From Phycisphaerae bacterium (GTDB lineage Bacteria; Planctomycetota; Phycisphaerae; Phycisphaerales; Phycisphaeraceae), in assembly GCA_030432595.1 (NCBI GenBank), contig JAUIGU010000037.1, forward strand, positions 1 through 39,489: DNA of 39,489 bases, written 5' to 3'. The notes under the pieces were generated by a model. It was not told the origin of the DNA. It saw only the letters and a list, made by a program, of their open reading frames with translations, and did no database searches. Position numbers and translations under genes: made by a program. Below are positions 1-39,489 of the stretch, one piece after another (positions within the stretch are counted from its first letter, which is position 1; each line of letters begins with the position of its first letter).

Positions 1-1405
1 GTCCACCGACGACTTCACGCAGGTGTTCCAGGCCGGCACGACCCAGGACTCCCGGGCGTGGAACTCCGACATCCAGTCTTACGCCGACGGCTCGATCAGC
101 ATCCTGTTCAAGGCACGCGATGGCGGCTTCGGCTCGCACACCTCGGGCGCGAACAACCAGAACACCTGGCTCGCCCGCTTCGACCCCAACTCGCAGACCT
201 GGACCAACCACGAGATCGCCCGCGCCGGCGGGAGCCTCTTCGGCGGCAGCGAGACCGACTACACCGGCTTAGGAGCGCTCGACCCCAGCGACCCCAACAC
301 GCTGTACATCTCCACCGAGATCAACCCGATCGATGGGCAGGCGACGGACCACCACGAGATCTACAAGGGCGTCACCGGCGACAACGGCGCGACTTGGAGC
401 TGGACCGCGATCACCGAGAACTCGACGTACGACAACCTCCGCCCGATCGTCCCAGAGTGGGACAGCCAGAACACCGCGCTGCTGTGGTGGCGGGGCGAGA
501 TGTCCAACTCGCACGCCTACGACACCGCCGTGACCGGGGTGCTGCTCCGCAGCGGCGAGGAGACCGGGCCGGTTCACTACGTCGACGCGACGACGGCCAA
601 CACCGCCCGCGCCGACGGCCAGGCGTTCAACCCCACGGTCGGCTCGTCCCAGGGTCCGGCGGACGACAACTGGCACGTCCGCACCGGGTTCGCCAACGGC
701 GGCAACCTGTTCGCCGCGGGCGAAGTCGGCAACGAAGATGCGCCCACACTCAAAACCTCAGTAGGCGGCCTGGACGCCGGGGCCTACGACGTGTTCGCCT
801 ACTTCTGGGTCGACGACTTCGGCGACTGGCGCATTCTTGCAGGGCTCTCGGAGGACGAACTGAATCTGTACCGCCAGCGCGGCGCGCAGCAGGCAGTGCC
901 TGATCAGTCGAACGTGACTTTTCTCCTCGAAGAGAGCAACCGCTCGCTCTATCAGGCCTACCTCGGCCGGGTCAGGCTCGATCAGGGCGACCCGCTCGAG
1001 GTGTTCGTCGATGCGTCCAGCGACAACAGCAACACCGGCCGGGCGTGGTTCGACGGCATCGGCTACGCGGCCGTGATCGCCGGGATCCTCGGCGACTACA
1101 ACAACTCGGGCCAAGTCGAGCAGGCTGACTTGGATCTCGTCTTGCAGAACTGGGGCGACACCGACATCTCTGACGTCACCGGCTGGACCAACTTCGCGGG
1201 CCTGCCCGGGGAAGGCATCGACGGCCAGGTCGATCAAACCGAACTTGACGTGGTTCTCCGAAACTGGGGAAACGCATCGACGCCGGACTTCTCCGGTTCA
1301 TCGGTCCCGGAACCAACAGGCTTACTCGCGTTCGGATTGCTGAGCACGGCCGCGTTGGGAAATCGCAATGCGTGTCGCGGCTCGTTGAGCGACTCGAATG
1401 AGTGA
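1..1405 (+). CDS. BNR_4-type propeller protein with dockerin-like repeats and PEP-CTERM tail (5' truncated)
   Basis: The frame is open from base 2, so the N-terminus lies outside the window; the GTG at 23 is internal. The first ~180 visible residues resemble BNR_4 repeat proteins (HHEIYKGVTGDNGATWSW, then LRPIVPEWD and ALLWWRGE), a beta-propeller family annotated as neuraminidase-like that also includes some polysaccharide lyases. A module of about 165 residues follows (578-1066) and recurs in the next gene. Next come two EF-hand-like dockerin repeats (GDYNNSGQVEQADLDLVLQNW and GIDGQVDQTELDVVLRNW, 1091-1273) and a VPEP motif with a hydrophobic stretch (1304 on), a PEP-CTERM signal for exosortase processing. 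The tail ends GNRNACRGSLSDSNE instead of an arginine cluster. Inferred role: exported carbohydrate-binding or carbohydrate-degrading protein; no catalytic residue can be assigned. Confidence 0.8.
   Translation, partial: STDDFTQVFQAGTTQDSRAWNSDIQSYADGSISILFKARDGGFGSHTSGANNQNTWLARFDPNSQTWTNHEIARAGGSLFGGSETDYTGLGALDPSDPNTLYISTEINPIDGQATDHHEIYKGVTGDNGATWSWTAITENSTYDNLRPIVPEWDSQNTALLWWRGEMSNSHAYDTAVTGVLLRSGEETGPVHYVDATTANTARADGQAFNPTVGSSQGPADDNWHVRTGFANGGNLFAAGEVGNEDAPTLKTSVGGLDAGAYDVFAYFWVDDFGDWRILAGLSEDELNLYRQRGAQQAVPDQSNVTFLLEESNRSLYQAYLGRVRLDQGDPLEVFVDASSDNSNTGRAWFDGIGYAAVIAGILGDYNNSGQVEQADLDLVLQNWGDTDISDVTGWTNFAGLPGEGIDGQVDQTELDVVLRNWGNASTPDFSGSSVPEPTGLLAFGLLSTAALGNRNACRGSLSDSNE
578..1066 (+). 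repeat. Shared extracellular module, copy 1
   Basis: This segment encodes a domain that begins YVDAT and continues W.VRTGFANGG, APTLKTSVGGL.AG.YDVFAYFWV, WRILAG, EESNRSL, EVFVDAS and WFDGIGY. The same ordered motifs occur in the following gene at 4422-4937. The copies are clearly homologous in protein but diverged at the DNA level. I do not recognise the domain by name; it looks like a beta-rich, possibly carbohydrate-binding, extracellular domain. Confidence 0.75.
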
Positions 1406-1476
1406 TACGACGATCCGTAGTTTTTCTCATTTTCTTCTCGTTGATTCTGACAACCTCGGACCGAGGGCTCTAACAC

Positions 1477-1481
1477 AGGAG
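1477..1481 (+). promoter_or_regulatory. Ribosome binding site that sets the start of the beta-strand-repeat gene
   Basis: AGGAG lies six bases before the ATG at 1488. The same frame is open from an ATG at 1398, but that start overlaps the previous gene, has no comparable site, and would place about 30 non-signal residues before the signal peptide. This site therefore supports 1488 as the true start. Confidence 0.7.
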
Positions 1482-1487
1482 ATTGCC

Positions 1488-4400
1488 ATGTCTGCTCGAT
1501 TGAATCCATTCTCGGCCCGCCCGGCCAACACGGCTTGCTGGTCGAGCCCATTCAAGGGTTCCCATGTGGCGCTCGCCACGTTGCTGGCCTTGCCGCTCGC
1601 GGGCACCGCTTCGGCCGTGGACATCGGCATCGTGAACGGCGACTTCGAATTGGACGCGGCGGACGATGTCGCGCCCCCGACGGGGTGGACCGACCTGACG
1701 CCGACGAGTTTCTGGACGGGACTTCTCGACGATCCCGGTAATCCGACCGCCGCGGAAGGTGCACTTGCGCCGGCTCCAGGACTGGGCAGCTACTTCCTCA
1801 CGACGGCTCGGACATCGGCGGGCGCAGGATCGCAACCGACGGACGGGACGCTACTGCAGACGGTCGATCTGACCTCGTTCGGTACGGACATCGACACCGG
1901 CGGGCAATTCCTCTACGTCGATTTCATCTGGGCCAGTGACGACGACCGCGACACAGGCACCTTCACACTGGACTTCTTCGGCTCAACAGACGGCACCGGC
2001 ACCTCCCTCGCTTCGTACAACCTCGACCTCAACAACGGCGACGGCTTCACCTTTGTCGGATGGTTCGAAGAGACGGTCGGCGGCGCGGTCCCCGTCAGCA
2101 CGCGAAGCGTGACCCTGCAGATCGACACGACCCGCACCGGCGGCTCGGAAACCAACCTGTGGTTCGACAACTTCGTGGGCGACATCAGCAACACCTCCTT
2201 GATCTTCAACGTCTGGTCCGTCGACGCGGACGGCCTGTGGAACACCGCCTCGAACTGGTCGGACGGCGTCCCGCCCGCCGACGCGGACGTGACGTTCGGC
2301 AACGTCATCTCCGCCAACCGCACCGTCACGCTCGACACCGCGGTCCAGGCCAATTCCATCGCGTTCAACAACTCCGGCGACGGCGACTACTTCCTCGTCG
2401 ATAACGGCGGCGGCGAGACGCTGACCCTCACCGGCGACGCGGTCGTCGATCTACAGACCGGCCGGCACTGGTTCCGCGCCGTGGTCGCCGGCACCGCCGG
2501 GCTCAACGCCACGGGCCCGGGCGAACTGGTGCTTGACGCCGACAACTCTTTCTCCGGCGGGATTACGATCGACGACGCCAACCTTGCCATCGTCAACGTC
2601 GATGCGATCCCGGCCGGCAACGACATCGCCCTGACCAACAACGCCCAGCTCCGCTTCTGGGGCCCGGACAACGAGTTCTTTGTGACCGAGAATGGGGCAC
2701 CCGGCTACGCGTCGGGCACGGTCGCCGAAGACATCTCGATCGATGCAACTTCGATCGTGGACGTCAACAGCGGCGCGGACGTGACCCTTACCGGCAGCGT
2801 GACGGGCACGGGCTTGCTCGCTTCCAACAGCGGCGCGACCCTGACGCTGCCCAACGCCAGCACGTTCGCCGGCAGAGTCGGTGCCTACGGCGGCGACGTG
2901 GTGGTGAACAACAACACCGCGCTCGGTCTGGCCAACGGGACCCCCGAGGCCGGCACGGAAATCGGCGGCAACGCGGACACTGGCGCTCTTGTCCTGACCG
3001 GTGGACTCACCGTCGGCGATGAACTGCTGACCTTCGGCGCTCGCGAAGACGACGCCGCCGACACGGTCGGCCTGTCCAGCACCGGCAACAACACCTGGAA
3101 CGGCAAAATCCTCGGCGCCGCCGGCGGCACGCAGTACAACCTCGAGTCCACCTCCGGCACGCTGACCCTCAACGGCACCATTTCCGCCCCCGACACCGGC
3201 GAACGCAACTTCGTGTTCGGCGGTGCCGGCAACTTCCTCGTCGGCGAGATCATCGACGGACTGGTGGACGCCAATGGCGACTACACCCAGCCCGGCACGG
3301 CGGACAACGTCAACGTCGTCAAGCGAGGTGCGGGCACGCTGACCGTCGATACGCAGACCGACGCGAACGACGACTACTGGTTCGGCACCACCACGGTCGA
3401 AGCCGGCTCCCTCGTGGTCAACTCCGACGGCGGGGACAACGGCGAGCTGCGTTCGACCGTGACCGTCAACGCCGGCGCGACCTTCGACGTCAGCGACTTC
3501 GGCACCTACAACCTGATCCCGATTGCTTCCATCGAGGCCGGCATCGGCGGCGGCGGCACCGTGGTCGCCAACACGCTCGGCGTCTTCGAGTCCTCCACCG
3601 TGACCCCCGGCGACTCGGTCGGCACACTCAACGTCAACGGCAACGTTCTGCTCCGGTACTTCGACACCGGCGACGCCACCGTGCCCGACACCGGCTCGTT
3701 CAACTTCGAGCTGGGCGACAACGGCGCCACGGTCGGCGGGGCCGAGAACGACCTAATCGACATCTCCGGCTCCCTGACCGCAACCATCGAAACCGCCGCG
3801 ACCGGCAGCCAGTTTGTCTTCAACATCAACCCCGTCGAAGGCGCTCTGGACGAGTCCAACAACTACACGCTGATCACCGCGGGGACCCGCACCGGCAACG
3901 CCACCGCGGCGAACTTCACTGCCAACCTCGTCGACACCCAGGGCAACCCGCTGGTCACCCGCCAGTCCGCCTCGGTGGTGCTCGTGGGCAACACCGTCCA
4001 ACTCGACGTCAACGGCAACCCGCTGAACCTGACTTGGACCGGCAACGTCAACGGCGACTGGGACGTCAACACGACGGCCAACTGGAACAGCGGAGCCCAG
4101 ACCTTCTTCGCCAGCGACAGCGCCACCTTCAACGCCACCGGCGGCGGCGGGGCGATCAACGTCGCCGAGACCGTTGCCCCCGCGAACGTGACCGTCACCG
4201 GCGCCGACTACAGCTTCAGCGGCGCCGACATCAACGCCATCTCCGTCACCGTGGGCGGCGGTGCCACGGCGTCCTTCGCCAATACCGTCCGCGGCAATGC
4301 CGTGGTTCAGAACACCGGCACCCTCGCCGGCACCGGAACCTTCGGCGACAGCGTCACCGTCCAGTCCGGCGGCACGCTCCGGGTCGGCGGCGACGGCCTG

Positions 4401-5555
4401 CCCACGCAGGACGTGTTGACCTACGTCGACGCCACCGACGGCGTCGGCGGCAACACCACGCTGTCCGCGGGCGGCACCTTCACGCCGACCACCAACCCCG
4501 ACTGGCAGATCCGCACCGTGTTCGGCAACGGCGGCGAGGTGTATCAGGGCGACGCCGACAACCCCAACGACGCGCCGGAACTCCAGACCACCATCACCGG
4601 CCTGACCCCCGGCCAAGACTACACCGTCTACGCCAACTACTGGGCCGCCTTCACCGGCAGCGGCGTCACGCAGTGGCGCATCCTGGCCGGCTCCGCCTCC
4701 GGCAACCTCACGCTCTACGACGCCGACTTCACCGACATCGCCGGTGCGACCGACGGCCTGGACCTGAGCACCGTGCCTTACACCAACGACCCCCTGGTCG
4801 AAGAAGGCAACCGGACCCTGTGGGGCGCCCCCGTCGGCACGCTCACCGCCGACTCCAACGGCGAGATCTCGGTGTTCGTTGACGACACGGGCACCGCTGA
4901 CGGCGACGACCGCACTTGGTACGACGGCGTCAGCTACAGCAGCGGCGCAATCGCGCCCGCTAGCGCCACGATGACGATCGATGGTGACTTGACCCTCAAC
5001 GCGGGTTCGACCCTCAGCCTCGACATCGCCAGCCCGACAATCCTTGACTCCCTGATCGTCGGCGGCACGCTCAACGCCGGCGGCACGCTCGACGTCAACC
5101 TCGAGCCCGGCGAGACCCTCGAGGCTGGCGACGCCTTCGACCTGCTCGACTTCGCTTCGGCGACCGGCAGCTTCGCGTTCGACCTGCCGACGCTGACGAC
5201 AGGCCTGACGTGGGACACGTCGAGCATCCTCATCGACGGCATCCTCTCCGTGCTCGGGCCGGCCGGCATCTTCGGCGACTACAACGACTCCGGCCAGGTC
5301 GAACAAGGCGACCTGGACTTCGTCCTTCAGAACTGGGGCGACACGGACATCTCCGACGTCGCCGGCTGGGTCAACTTCGCCGGCCTGCCCGGCGGCGGCA
5401 TCGACGGACAGGTCGAGCAGACCGAACTTGATCTCGTGCTCACCAACTGGGGCGACACCACCGCGCCGGACTTCGCCGGCTCGTCGGTCCCGGAACCCAC
5501 CTCCCTCGTGATCCTGGGCCTCAGCGGAGCATTGGCGCTTCGTCGGCGTCCGTGA
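1488..5555 (+). CDS. Large exported beta-strand-repeat protein with dockerin-like repeats and PEP-CTERM sorting signal
   Basis: 1355 residues. The ATG at 1488 has a good ribosome binding site. Residues 1-43 form a signal peptide with a long polar n-region, a hydrophobic ALATLLALPLAG core and an ASA cleavage site. Residues ~45-235 look like a beta-sandwich domain (NGDFEL start, LWFDNFVGDI end). The bulk is low-complexity, Asn/Gly/Thr-rich beta repeat of the autotransporter-associated or PEP-CTERM filament kind: NVWSVDADGLWNTASNWSDG near 240-260, GPGELVLDADNSFSGG, KRGAGTLTVDT, and LTWTGNVNGDWDVNTTANW. A module shared with the upstream gene spans 4422-4937, and two dockerin-like EF-hand repeats span 5274-5458. 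The protein ends VPEPTSLVILGL...RRRP, a standard PEP-CTERM signal, implying exosortase processing and surface display or release. No catalytic domain was seen. A terminator follows directly. Confidence 0.85.
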   Translation: MSARLNPFSARPANTACWSSPFKGSHVALATLLALPLAGTASAVDIGIVNGDFELDAADDVAPPTGWTDLTPTSFWTGLLDDPGNPTAAEGALAPAPGLGSYFLTTARTSAGAGSQPTDGTLLQTVDLTSFGTDIDTGGQFLYVDFIWASDDDRDTGTFTLDFFGSTDGTGTSLASYNLDLNNGDGFTFVGWFEETVGGAVPVSTRSVTLQIDTTRTGGSETNLWFDNFVGDISNTSLIFNVWSVDADGLWNTASNWSDGVPPADADVTFGNVISANRTVTLDTAVQANSIAFNNSGDGDYFLVDNGGGETLTLTGDAVVDLQTGRHWFRAVVAGTAGLNATGPGELVLDADNSFSGGITIDDANLAIVNVDAIPAGNDIALTNNAQLRFWGPDNEFFVTENGAPGYASGTVAEDISIDATSIVDVNSGADVTLTGSVTGTGLLASNSGATLTLPNASTFAGRVGAYGGDVVVNNNTALGLANGTPEAGTEIGGNADTGALVLTGGLTVGDELLTFGAREDDAADTVGLSSTGNNTWNGKILGAAGGTQYNLESTSGTLTLNGTISAPDTGERNFVFGGAGNFLVGEIIDGLVDANGDYTQPGTADNVNVVKRGAGTLTVDTQTDANDDYWFGTTTVEAGSLVVNSDGGDNGELRSTVTVNAGATFDVSDFGTYNLIPIASIEAGIGGGGTVVANTLGVFESSTVTPGDSVGTLNVNGNVLLRYFDTGDATVPDTGSFNFELGDNGATVGGAENDLIDISGSLTATIETAATGSQFVFNINPVEGALDESNNYTLITAGTRTGNATAANFTANLVDTQGNPLVTRQSASVVLVGNTVQLDVNGNPLNLTWTGNVNGDWDVNTTANWNSGAQTFFASDSATFNATGGGGAINVAETVAPANVTVTGADYSFSGADINAISVTVGGGATASFANTVRGNAVVQNTGTLAGTGTFGDSVTVQSGGTLRVGGDGLPTQDVLTYVDATDGVGGNTTLSAGGTFTPTTNPDWQIRTVFGNGGEVYQGDADNPNDAPELQTTITGLTPGQDYTVYANYWAAFTGSGVTQWRILAGSASGNLTLYDADFTDIAGATDGLDLSTVPYTNDPLVEEGNRTLWGAPVGTLTADSNGEISVFVDDTGTADGDDRTWYDGVSYSSGAIAPASATMTIDGDLTLNAGSTLSLDIASPTILDSLIVGGTLNAGGTLDVNLEPGETLEAGDAFDLLDFASATGSFAFDLPTLTTGLTWDTSSILIDGILSVLGPAGIFGDYNDSGQVEQGDLDFVLQNWGDTDISDVAGWVNFAGLPGGGIDGQVEQTELDLVLTNWGDTTAPDFAGSSVPEPTSLVILGLSGALALRRRP
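4422..4937 (+). repeat. Shared extracellular module, copy 2
   Basis: Homologous to the module at 578-1066 in the preceding gene. Motifs are in the same order: YVDAT, W.IRTVFGNGG, APELQTTITGL.PG.DYTVYANYW, WRILAGS, EEGNRTLWGAPVG, SVFVDD and WYDGVSY. This copy is about nine residues longer, the extra length falling mainly between the WRILAG and EEGNR motifs. Confidence 0.75.
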
Positions 5556-27017: not shown

Positions 27018-27806
27018 TCATTGGTGGTCCGGGCCCAGCCAGGGCACCCATTCGTGGTGGGCGTGGGGGCTTTGTTTCTGTTCCTCGGTCTGCGGGTCGA
27101 AGGGGTCGGGGCCGTAGTCCTCGCCGGCGTGCCAGCGGCAGTCGGGCAGTCCCGTGAGCAACAGCTTTTCGAGGAAGACGTGCCCGTCGAGCGCGGTATA
27201 CACGCCCTGACGCTGGTGCCAGTAGCCGAACATGCTGTGGCCGTCGTCGCGCAACTGGAGGTTGTTGGGCGTGACGCGCAGGTCGGGGAACTCGGCCCGG
27301 GTTTCGGAAAGCAGGACCGTGTGCGACGCCCGCGGGATCGCGCTGATCTTGCGGCGGGCCTCGACCGACTCGGGGAACTGCACCCAGACCAGGTGCCCGT
27401 TGATGGCGTAGCTGCTCGCGACGTCGCCGACGTTGACGCTGCCGTTGTTGACCTCGCCTTCCTCGGAACGCGGGTCGGTCGGCGACATGGTGCAAAGCCA
27501 GACGCGTTCGTCGCCGAGATAGTTCTGCTCGGCGAGTTGGAAACGCCAACTGACGTGCTCGCTCGGCTCGACGGACATGCGGTTTTCGGGCAGCAGGCCC
27601 TTGCGGTCGGTGCTGAACGCGGTGACCGCGATGCCGACCTGGCGCTGCCGGCTCTGGCACTGGGCGGTCTTGGCGACCTCGCGCGCGGCCGCCAGCGCGG
27701 GCAGAACCAGCGCGATCAGCAGCGCGATGATGCTGATCACGACGAGCAGCTCGACGAGCGTGAACGCCGTGTCGCGACGTGCAACTTGTTCTTCAGAGCA
27801 AACCAT
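27018..27806 (-). CDS. Type II secretion-like pseudopilin (prepilin N-terminal methylation protein)
   Basis: 262 residues. A short leader ([14 protein letters not shown]) precedes [32 protein letters not shown], the prepilin peptidase cleavage site, conserved Glu5 and hydrophobic helix. Cleavage would be after Ala rather than the usual Gly. The C-terminal domain has features of planctomycete H-X9-DG-type pseudopilins: [23 protein letters not shown], and a late [17 protein letters not shown] close to the family's H-x-DG signature. Such proteins occur in many copies per planctomycete genome; the specific role is unknown. The ~210-bp between its start and proC stop has no other gene. Confidence 0.85.
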
Positions 27807-36915: not shown

Positions 36916-38904
36916 TCACGACGCCACCGCGCCCGGCAGGATCGGCGGCACCGGCACGCCCATCGCCTCGACCACGACCCGCAACAGCTCCGCCTCCCGG
37001 CCCGTGACCTTGCCGTCGGCCGCCACGCACGCGACGCACGCCTCGGCCGCCTGCTGCTTGAGCTTCGGCGCGAGCTGCGACAGCGACTCGATCGACGCCG
37101 CGACCGCCTGCATGTCCGTGTTCGCCCGCGGTTGCAGCGACACGTCCTTGAGACCCGTGACGGCGGCGGCTTCGTCGAACGCGTGGCGGGCCGCGGCCTC
37201 GTCGCCGTGCTGACCGACGTGGGCCAACACCGAGAGCACGGTCTGCATCGGGACCTTCACCTCCGCGAGCCGGCCGTACTTCACCTTATCCGCCTGCCGG
37301 CGCTCGAACCGCGCGCCGACGTGCCGGCGGATCACCTCGCGCAACGCCCACTCGAACAGATCGACCCGCGCGTCCGCCGCGATCAGATGTTCAGCCACCT
37401 TCGAGAACTTGCGGTACTCCGCCAGCGCCATGTTCGACAACGCCGGGACGCACATATCCAGCACCGGCAGCCGCCACGCGCGGTCCAAGCCCGCGACCGT
37501 ATCCACCAACGCCGGGACCAGCCGGGCCACGGCGGCCGACGCCTCGCGTTCGAGCAACGCGAATTGCTTCTGTCGTACCCCCGAGTCTTGATCCACCAAT
37601 AGCGCAAACACCAGCGCCTGGGCATCATTGGGCCGGCGCGACGCTGCGCGGACCTCGTCCGGCAGCGCGGCGATGAACGCGCGGGCCGCCGCGATGTGCG
37701 CGTCGTCCAGTTCGCCCACCCCGCCGAGCACGGCGTCCGAGGCCTCGCCCGCCGGCGCACCTTGCGTCCGCACCGCGCCGGTCGCGTCGCGCTGCACACC
37801 TGGCGACACGCCGCCCGCAAAGCCCGCCGCGCCGGCCGCCTGCGCGATCGCCGAGGTCGGCGCCCCGCCGCGCTCTTCCGTGATGAAGTTCCCGTCCCAG
37901 CGCGGGTCGATGCGTTTGATGCGCTCCGGCAGCGGCGGGTGCGTCGCGAGCAAACCGCCCAGCGACATCGCCTGGCCGAAGAACAGGTGCGCGGTTTCTT
38001 CCGCATGGGGCGAGCGGACCCGGCTGCCGTACTGCAACCCGCCGATGCGTTTGAGCGCCCCGCCGATGCCGTCGGGGTTCCGGGTGTACTGCACGGCCGA
38101 CGCGTCGGCGAGGAACTCGCGCTGCCGCGACACCGCCGCCTGGATCAGCTTGCCGAACAGCACGCCGACCCACCCGATCACGATCAACGCGACGCCCACG
38201 AGCAGGATCACCAGCTTGCCGCCGCCCTCGTTCTTCCCGCTGCTGCGGCTGCGGCTCGAGCCGCTGTAGAACATGCTGCGGACCACAACCCGGCCCACCA
38301 CCGACAGCGCGAGGATGCCGAAGATCGCGCCGATCAGCCGGATGTTCAGCCGCATGTCGCCGTTGAGGATGTGCGCGAACTCGTGGGCGATCACGCCCTG
38401 CAGCTCGTCGCGCGAGAGCTGCTCGACGCAGCCGCGCGTCACGCCGACCACCGCCGTCTCCGGCCGATACCCCGCGGCGAACGCGTTGATGCCGGGCTCG
38501 TCGCCCAGCAGGTACACCGGCGGCACGGGCAGGCCCGACGCGATCGACATTTCCTCCACGACGTTGAGCACCTTGCGCTCGTCCGGGTCGGTCGTGTCCG
38601 GGTCGATGGGGTGGCCGCCCAGGGAGCTGGCGACGATCGCGCCGCCGCCGCTGCGGAGCTGCGCGATCTTGAACAGCGAACACCCGCCGACCAGCGCACC
38701 CACGCCGAACACCGTGCCGCCCAGGGCCTGGAGCCAGGGCATCTGCGCCGGGTCGAGCTCGCTGTTGTTGTTCGCGGCCAGCAGCATCAGCGCCGCGACG
38801 ACACCGAACACCAACGCCGTGATTCCCACCATGCCGAACGCGAACAGCAGAACCAGCCGCCCCGTCCCCTTGCGTGCCCGGTCCTGGTGCTCGTAGAAGT
38901 TCAT
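36916..38904 (-). CDS. M48 family membrane metalloprotease with TerB-like C-terminus
   Basis: 662 residues, about twice HtpX. Two N-terminal membrane segments (15-43, 60-80) precede the catalytic domain: HEFAH at 174-178 and the third ligand E263 in QREFLADASA, with membrane segments at ~187-210 and 229-255, as in HtpX. Then comes a long soluble C-terminal region. Its last ~70 residues (LKQQAAEACVACVAADGKVTGREAELLRVVV) have the look of a TerB-like metal-binding helical domain. Family members cleave damaged membrane proteins. It follows lemA in the same direction, a pairing found in many bacteria; here the gap is 116 bases. Confidence 0.88.
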   Translation of the reverse strand: MNFYEHQDRARKGTGRLVLLFAFGMVGITALVFGVVAALMLLAANNNSELDPAQMPWLQALGGTVFGVGALVGGCSLFKIAQLRSGGGAIVASSLGGHPIDPDTTDPDERKVLNVVEEMSIASGLPVPPVYLLGDEPGINAFAAGYRPETAVVGVTRGCVEQLSRDELQGVIAHEFAHILNGDMRLNIRLIGAIFGILALSVVGRVVVRSMFYSGSSRSRSSGKNEGGGKLVILLVGVALIVIGWVGVLFGKLIQAAVSRQREFLADASAVQYTRNPDGIGGALKRIGGLQYGSRVRSPHAEETAHLFFGQAMSLGGLLATHPPLPERIKRIDPRWDGNFITEERGGAPTSAIAQAAGAAGFAGGVSPGVQRDATGAVRTQGAPAGEASDAVLGGVGELDDAHIAAARAFIAALPDEVRAASRRPNDAQALVFALLVDQDSGVRQKQFALLEREASAAVARLVPALVDTVAGLDRAWRLPVLDMCVPALSNMALAEYRKFSKVAEHLIAADARVDLFEWALREVIRRHVGARFERRQADKVKYGRLAEVKVPMQTVLSVLAHVGQHGDEAAARHAFDEAAAVTGLKDVSLQPRANTDMQAVAASIESLSQLAPKLKQQAAEACVACVAADGKVTGREAELLRVVVEAMGVPVPPILPGAVAS

Positions 38905-39020: not shown

Positions 39021-39489
39021 TCAAAACTCCACCTTCGGCGCCTCGCGCTTCGCCGCCTCTTCGATCTCAAGGTACGCCGCGTCCTCGAACCCGAAGATGC
39101 CCGCGAAGATGTTCGGCGGGAACTGCTGCTTGTACGTCTGGTACACGTTCACCTGATCGTTGTAACCCTGCCGCGCGAAGGCGACCTTGTTCTCGGTGGA
39201 GGTGAGTTCCTCGCTTAACTGCATCATGTTCTGGTTAGCCTTTAAGTCCGGATAGGCTTCCATCACTACGCTCAACCGGCCGAGCGCGCCGCCGAGGGCG
39301 CCTTCCGCGCCGGCGAGATCTTTGATTGCGGCGGCGTTCGCCGGGTCAGCGGCAGCTGCCTGCAGTCCGGCCATGGCCATCATCGGCTTCACGGTGGAGC
39401 CCGGGGGATACTGGCCCTGTATGGCGCGGTTGAACAGCGGCACATCCGGGGAGTCACGCAGCGCCTTGTAATCCGTGGAGCTGATGCCA
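39021..39489 (-). CDS. lemA: LemA family protein, 5' part replaced by a PBP2 fragment (chimeric, truncated)
   Basis: About 112 residues of C-terminal LemA are genuine: AGAEGALGGALGRLSVVMEAYPDLKANQNMMQL, ELTSTENKVAFARQGYND, and FPPNIFAGIFGFEDAAYLEIEE before the stop at 39021. LemA proteins are short N-terminally anchored, coiled-coil exported proteins; the anchor is missing here. From ~39360 to the window edge the same frame instead reads a penicillin-binding protein 2 segment (see next entry), which is not part of LemA. The lemA-M48 order is usual and supports the LemA identification. Treat the gene as partial: its true 5' end is not in this sequence. Confidence 0.85.
   Translation of the reverse strand, partial: GISSTDYKALRDSPDVPLFNRAIQGQYPPGSTVKPMMAMAGLQAAAADPANAAAIKDLAGAEGALGGALGRLSVVMEAYPDLKANQNMMQLSEELTSTENKVAFARQGYNDQVNVYQTYKQQFPPNIFAGIFGFEDAAYLEIEEAAKREAPKVEF
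39360..39489 (-). other. Penicillin-binding protein 2 fragment joined to lemA (probable chimeric junction)
   Basis: The frame reads GISSTDYKALRDSPDVPLFN, then RAIQGQYPPGSTVKPMMAMA, then GLQ, which is the transpeptidase start of PBP2 (MrdA) with the SxxK active-site serine in PPGSTVKP. It resembles gammaproteobacterial PBP2. Codon use differs from the rest of the window, for example ATA for Ile, TAT for Tyr and GAT for Asp in two of three cases. The exact join cannot be placed between ~39345 and 39365, because the GCT/GCC alanine run could belong to either side. Confidence 0.85.

Follow-up and report, generated by a model that had tools for sequence, protein, structure and literature searches.

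The right end of contig C59 is, with a probability of about 96%, a misassembly and not a real gene: it is a mosaic of three sources with two joins. The window, i.e. the whole stretch of 39,489 nucleotides that was analysed, is this entire contig, and the chimera therefore lies at a contig end. The genome (G000) comprises 4.39 Mb in 73 contigs, with a completeness of 99.1% and a contamination of 0.44%. One join is at 39357/39358, between PBP2 and LemA sequence; the other is at about 39158-39164, inside the LemA part, where the boundary between native and foreign lemA is uncertain by about 6 bases, TACAAC being common to both (Table 1).

The two joins fall within one minus-strand ORF (39021-39488, 155 aa), which enters from the right contig end, stays open across both joins and stops at 39021. 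Read on the minus strand, 43 residues of PBP2 around SxxK are followed by LemA. Residues 1-51 match pbp2_mrdA (TIGR03423, E 5.5e-16), residues 12-52 the Pfam Transpeptidase domain (E 2e-8) and residues 46-155 LemA (PF04011, E 5.7e-36); both Pfam matches are above their curated cut-offs. The match to TIGR03423 reaches 58 bits for a cut-off of 455 and covers 51 of the 593 model positions, i.e. the frame is not a full-length MrdA. Its LemA domain is also incomplete, with profile positions 44-149 of 149 only; by eye, the hydrophobic N-terminus of LemA is found on contig C34 and not in the window. The PBP2 piece has neither start nor stop and corresponds to 43 of the 626 residues of a Haliea ORF (L060). 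Transpeptidases carry the further motifs SxN and KTG; by eye, no transpeptidase motif other than SxxK is present in the piece. A sequence-only reading of this DNA had described a lemA/PBP2 chimeric frame at the end of the window, and the two profile matches (TIGR03423 and PF04011) together with the Haliea mrdA identity given below bear this out. It had rightly recognised the PBP2 segment around SxxK and the in-frame fusion; the PBP2/LemA join has to be placed at 39357/39358, and the second join, inside the LemA part, had been overlooked.

Table 1. Features at the right end of contig C59
Feature	Position	Strand	Remarks
htpX-like M48 metalloprotease gene, native neighbour of lemA	36916..38904	-	PF01435, E 4.5e-26; HtpX kind
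Native 3' end of lemA, 45 codons + stop	39021..39158	-	5' part on C34
Foreign middle of lemA, apparently from a third organism	39159..39357	-	71% DNA identity to native C34 lemA
Foreign internal mrdA (PBP2) fragment around SxxK	39358..39489	-	from a Haliea-like gammaproteobacterium; 128/132 bases identical to L060

The PBP2 piece aligns without gaps to mrdA of Haliea salexigens (L060) at 128 of 132 bases (97%, E 7.5e-58), which excludes chance, and equally without gaps to mrdA of Haliea alexandrii (L054) at 127 of 132. The match breaks sharply at 39358: from base 133 on, agreement is at once that of the background. The frame is the same as in H. salexigens, and only one of the 43 complete codons alters the amino acid. 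In a scan of 84,980 species genomes, a degenerate pattern of the core peptide retrieved 11 records: six titled Haliea, two titled Halieaceae bacterium, and one each titled Parahaliea, Kineobactrum and marine gamma proteobacterium HTCC2148. The last three are Halieaceae in the NCBI taxonomy, so that all 11 belong to this family by title or taxonomy; as the pattern itself selects this peptide, the family-level result is partly built in, which is not the case for the DNA comparison. The other nine Halieaceae records agree with the piece at 98-114 of its first 130 bases. Judged from its sequence, the piece comes from a Haliea-like gammaproteobacterium (Halieaceae). The proposal of an assembly join with gammaproteobacterium-like sequence is thereby supported, the partner being Haliea-like at 97% DNA identity.

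The PBP2-like genes that G000 has of its own are other, distant loci, on C16 (244 bits) and C26 (188 bits; cut-off 455), and a search of this genome for a further copy of 39289-39489 found none. A search of plasmids with 39345-39489 gave no match at the DNA level and 41 records at the protein level, the best being an Acinetobacter mrdA at 65%. The starts of 20 other contigs of G000 (20 of 73 contigs, one end each) did not match the 11 Halieaceae mrdA loci, as expected from a comparison limited to the mrdA gene region. As side observations on contig starts of G000, those of the short contigs C4 and C61 have an exact 36-base run in common, away from the edges (L098 157-192 and L109 236-271), and at those of C2, C7 and C62 (L096, L101 and L110) the GC of the first 130 bases is 0.09-0.14 below that of the next 200.

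The LemA residues encoded by the middle part of lemA overlap with the ones on C34. Compared with the same codons of the native lemA on C34 it is identical at 143 of 201 bases (71%, counted over 39159-39359), and the proteins agree at 74-75%. No other copy of it was found in G000. With the lemA of one Haliea genome the DNA identity is 73% over 150 bases, part of which is native sequence; the second Haliea genome gave no DNA match to the lemA part, and in both the LemA protein is 62% identical. A Haliea origin for the entire foreign tail was rejected on these values. Since they are this low, the middle is best read as coming from a third organism, neither native nor Haliea. In 397 genomes of the window's class 21 matched (E 1e-24, own included), with 83% for the best other; in 392 genomes of its phylum 15 matched (own included), with 79% for the best other; and in 369 genomes of Haliea's class 39 matched, with 82% for the best. 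These sets are samples of the groups, and the class and phylum sets share genomes. Among the loci compared, the best DNA match belongs to G054, a genome from the same taxonomic order, and has 83% identity over 159 bases. Native and foreign lemA have an identical 26-base run near the join.

The native front part of lemA lies at the edge of another contig, C34:1-462 on the minus strand (in locus L004, G000:C34:1-6000). Its frame, hydrophobic at the N-terminus, runs up to ...AFARQAYN at the contig edge, and the window carries on from there with DQVNVYQTYKQQ...; base 1 of C34 cuts lemA at the codon that precedes the native part of the window. A third, distant lemA of G000 is on C46 (41%). We compared ten neighbourhoods from relatives with the C34 part, the last 45 residues of the window and htpX. 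All ten matched the C34 part and nine of them the 45 residues as well; in these nine the two parts are contiguous and gapless in one gene, but as the queries were split at the C34 edge, this gapless fit tests co-linearity and not the exact breakpoint. In the tenth relative (L049) the 45-aa query had no match at E 0.01, and a 112-aa query matched the locus to its end. The htpX gene is present in all ten; its distance from the lemA end is at most about 0.2 kb in nine (in L049 as measured from the end given by the 112-aa query) and 1.5 kb in L047. With the same-genus genome G001, identity is 86% over residues 23-154 for the C34 LemA and 70% over residues 1-340 for the window's HtpX.

A single htpX, that of the window, was found in G000 (threshold E 0.001), likewise one each in G004 and G010. 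Because the lemA parts are co-linear in relatives and only this htpX was found, C34 and C59 are most likely two parts of one lemA-htpX locus and neighbours in the genome. At the join they have only TACAAC in common; the long exact overlap that neighbouring contigs often have is missing. A LAB_N gene lies upstream of lemA on C34; it was found in none of the ten neighbourhoods, which leaves the join without support from upstream synteny. In G001, htpX is split across two contigs (G001:C42:16-1125 and G001:C154:8-832); since both parts are at contig ends, the assembly breaks near the htpX locus in that genome too.

Base composition does not reveal the joins: GC is 0.61 in the native part, 0.63 in the middle and 0.65 in the PBP2 piece, with no step. 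Codon usage was scored against 18 of the 23 listed ORFs of the window, five being left out for heavy overlap or doubtful starts. The sequence-only reading had held the ATA, TAT and GAT codons of the PBP2 piece to be rare in the contig. ATA does occur only once in the 7937 codons of the 18 ORFs, and TAT and GAT are in the minority there; the piece nevertheless outscores 15% of native 43-codon stretches and is thus within the native range. The codon argument points in the right direction and would not carry the case. The middle of lemA is more unusual than the PBP2 piece, with 5% of native 66-codon stretches scoring lower, and its third-position GC (52/66) is below that of the lowest 67-codon stretch of htpX (0.81). 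For the native end of lemA 94% of native stretches score lower, and for the same codons on C34 98%.

To check the bin assignment of the remaining contig, as had been advised, the window was compared in two halves with G001, with G004 (same family) and with two Haliea genomes, scoring 40 of 120-924 candidates per genome (40 of 120-134 for Haliea). Among the matches listed, G001 matches the window at 66-86% DNA identity in conserved order: its contig C257 covers most of 6.6-31.7 kb, and C154 and C42 continue to 38.9 kb. Elsewhere than in the last 132 bases, the Haliea matches have 65-79% identity, with 86-91% reached only in runs of 35-44 bases; the 97% match is confined to these 132 bases, again among the matches listed. 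On these alignments the bin assignment holds for the contig beyond about 6.6 kb. The part before that, taken as native, is less firmly shown to be so: G001 and G004 match it only in scattered pieces, including a repeated module (5242-5527), and the matches listed contain none to Haliea.

Several features of the contig were noted in passing. Two plus-strand ORFs (2-1405 and 1398-5555) have by eye a common C-terminal module, GDYN.SGQVEQ...NWGDTDISDV, and a PEP-CTERM-like tail, and match no NCBIfam family at E 0.001; the DNA around 5230-5555 has 39 matching places in G001 among the matches listed. On the minus strand, 27018-27806 encodes a protein with a prepilin-type N-terminus (TIGR02532), and the DNA at about 27589-27782 has dozens of matching places in G001 and G004 together, which indicates a multi-copy family.

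Two observations are those of an assembly chimera: adjoining segments belong to different organisms (39358-39489 Haliea-like, 39021-39158 native), and the true continuation is found elsewhere in the assembly (C34:1-462). The true sequence most likely leaves C59 at about 39158-39164 and goes on in C34 with the 5' part of the same lemA. Some 331 bases occupy its place instead, a lemA segment of another organism and then the Haliea-like mrdA piece. The likeliest route would be that a contig end with weak support was extended through short stretches common to lemA genes; a conserved stretch such as the 26-base run is where an assembler may slip. The joins may come from the assembly or from a chimeric read, and the sequence does not decide between the two. 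Physical joins, made in a chimeric library molecule or read instead of by the assembler, are possible as a form of misassembly, somewhat unlikely in our view: the PBP2 piece (132 bases) and the foreign tail (331 bases) would fit the length of a read or read pair, but two joins within one molecule are less likely than one. For users of the contig the consequence is the same.

A real recombination in this bacterium, which would have changed a lemA copy and joined it to a fragment of Haliea mrdA, appears very improbable. The reading frame is open across both joins, as such an event might leave it, but for lengths of 43 and 66 codons this is weak evidence. Recombination would require a pair of unrelated joins, separated by about 200 bases and located right at a contig end, one of them 97% identical to a bacterium far from the genome's own relatives, while the htpX of the window is the only one found and the native front of lemA stands at the end of C34. 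Even harder to credit is a mixed population in which one member acquired the mrdA fragment beside a lemA converted by a third organism, C59 being this variant and C34 the usual form. A real lemA-PBP2 fusion protein was rejected, the native front being on C34 and no independent case being found in the LemA alignment, where inspection by eye showed a PBP2 segment in none of the 31 other rows (29 belonging to relatives and 2 to this genome; loci of best matches only). The exact 24-base junction is also absent from viral_contigs, a weak test. That all of C59 is foreign and wrongly binned seems next to impossible; the scattered G001 matches in the first 6.6 kb would agree with it, but the ordered matches from 6.6 to 38.9 kb led us to reject it, and away from the last 132 bases the Haliea matches listed, short runs aside, do not exceed 79%.

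Misassembly thus being the reading retained, its importance is a matter of database hygiene only, without new biology. As both Pfam matches are above their curated cut-offs, the case shows that a short chimera which stays in frame can be taken for a protein of two domains; the 155-aa product should be kept out of the annotation as a fusion. Dropping the contig end, as had been recommended, is needed, and the part to be trimmed is about 331 bases (39159-39489) instead of 130. C34 and C59 can be proposed as genome neighbours.

The native part of the window shares gene order and sequence with the lemA-htpX pair of the same family and order; these relatives keep their own lemA front, whereas the window has foreign DNA there. 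The PBP2 piece is like the mrdA of H. salexigens and H. alexandrii in sequence and frame, but is an internal segment of an ORF that in Haliea is followed, by eye, by a RodA-like frame (L060), an arrangement that a Pseudomonas record also shows in its annotation of mrdA. According to Chen et al. 2020 (PMC7111523), assemblers create chimeric scaffolds between organisms, rarely in the authors' experience, and read support and coverage serve as tests for chimeras. The chimeric scaffold of a metagenome assembly described there has a different phylogenetic profile on either side of the join, and the same is seen at the end of C59. Compared with that case, C59 differs in that the foreign DNA amounts to only about 331 bases, lies at a contig end and involves two joins.
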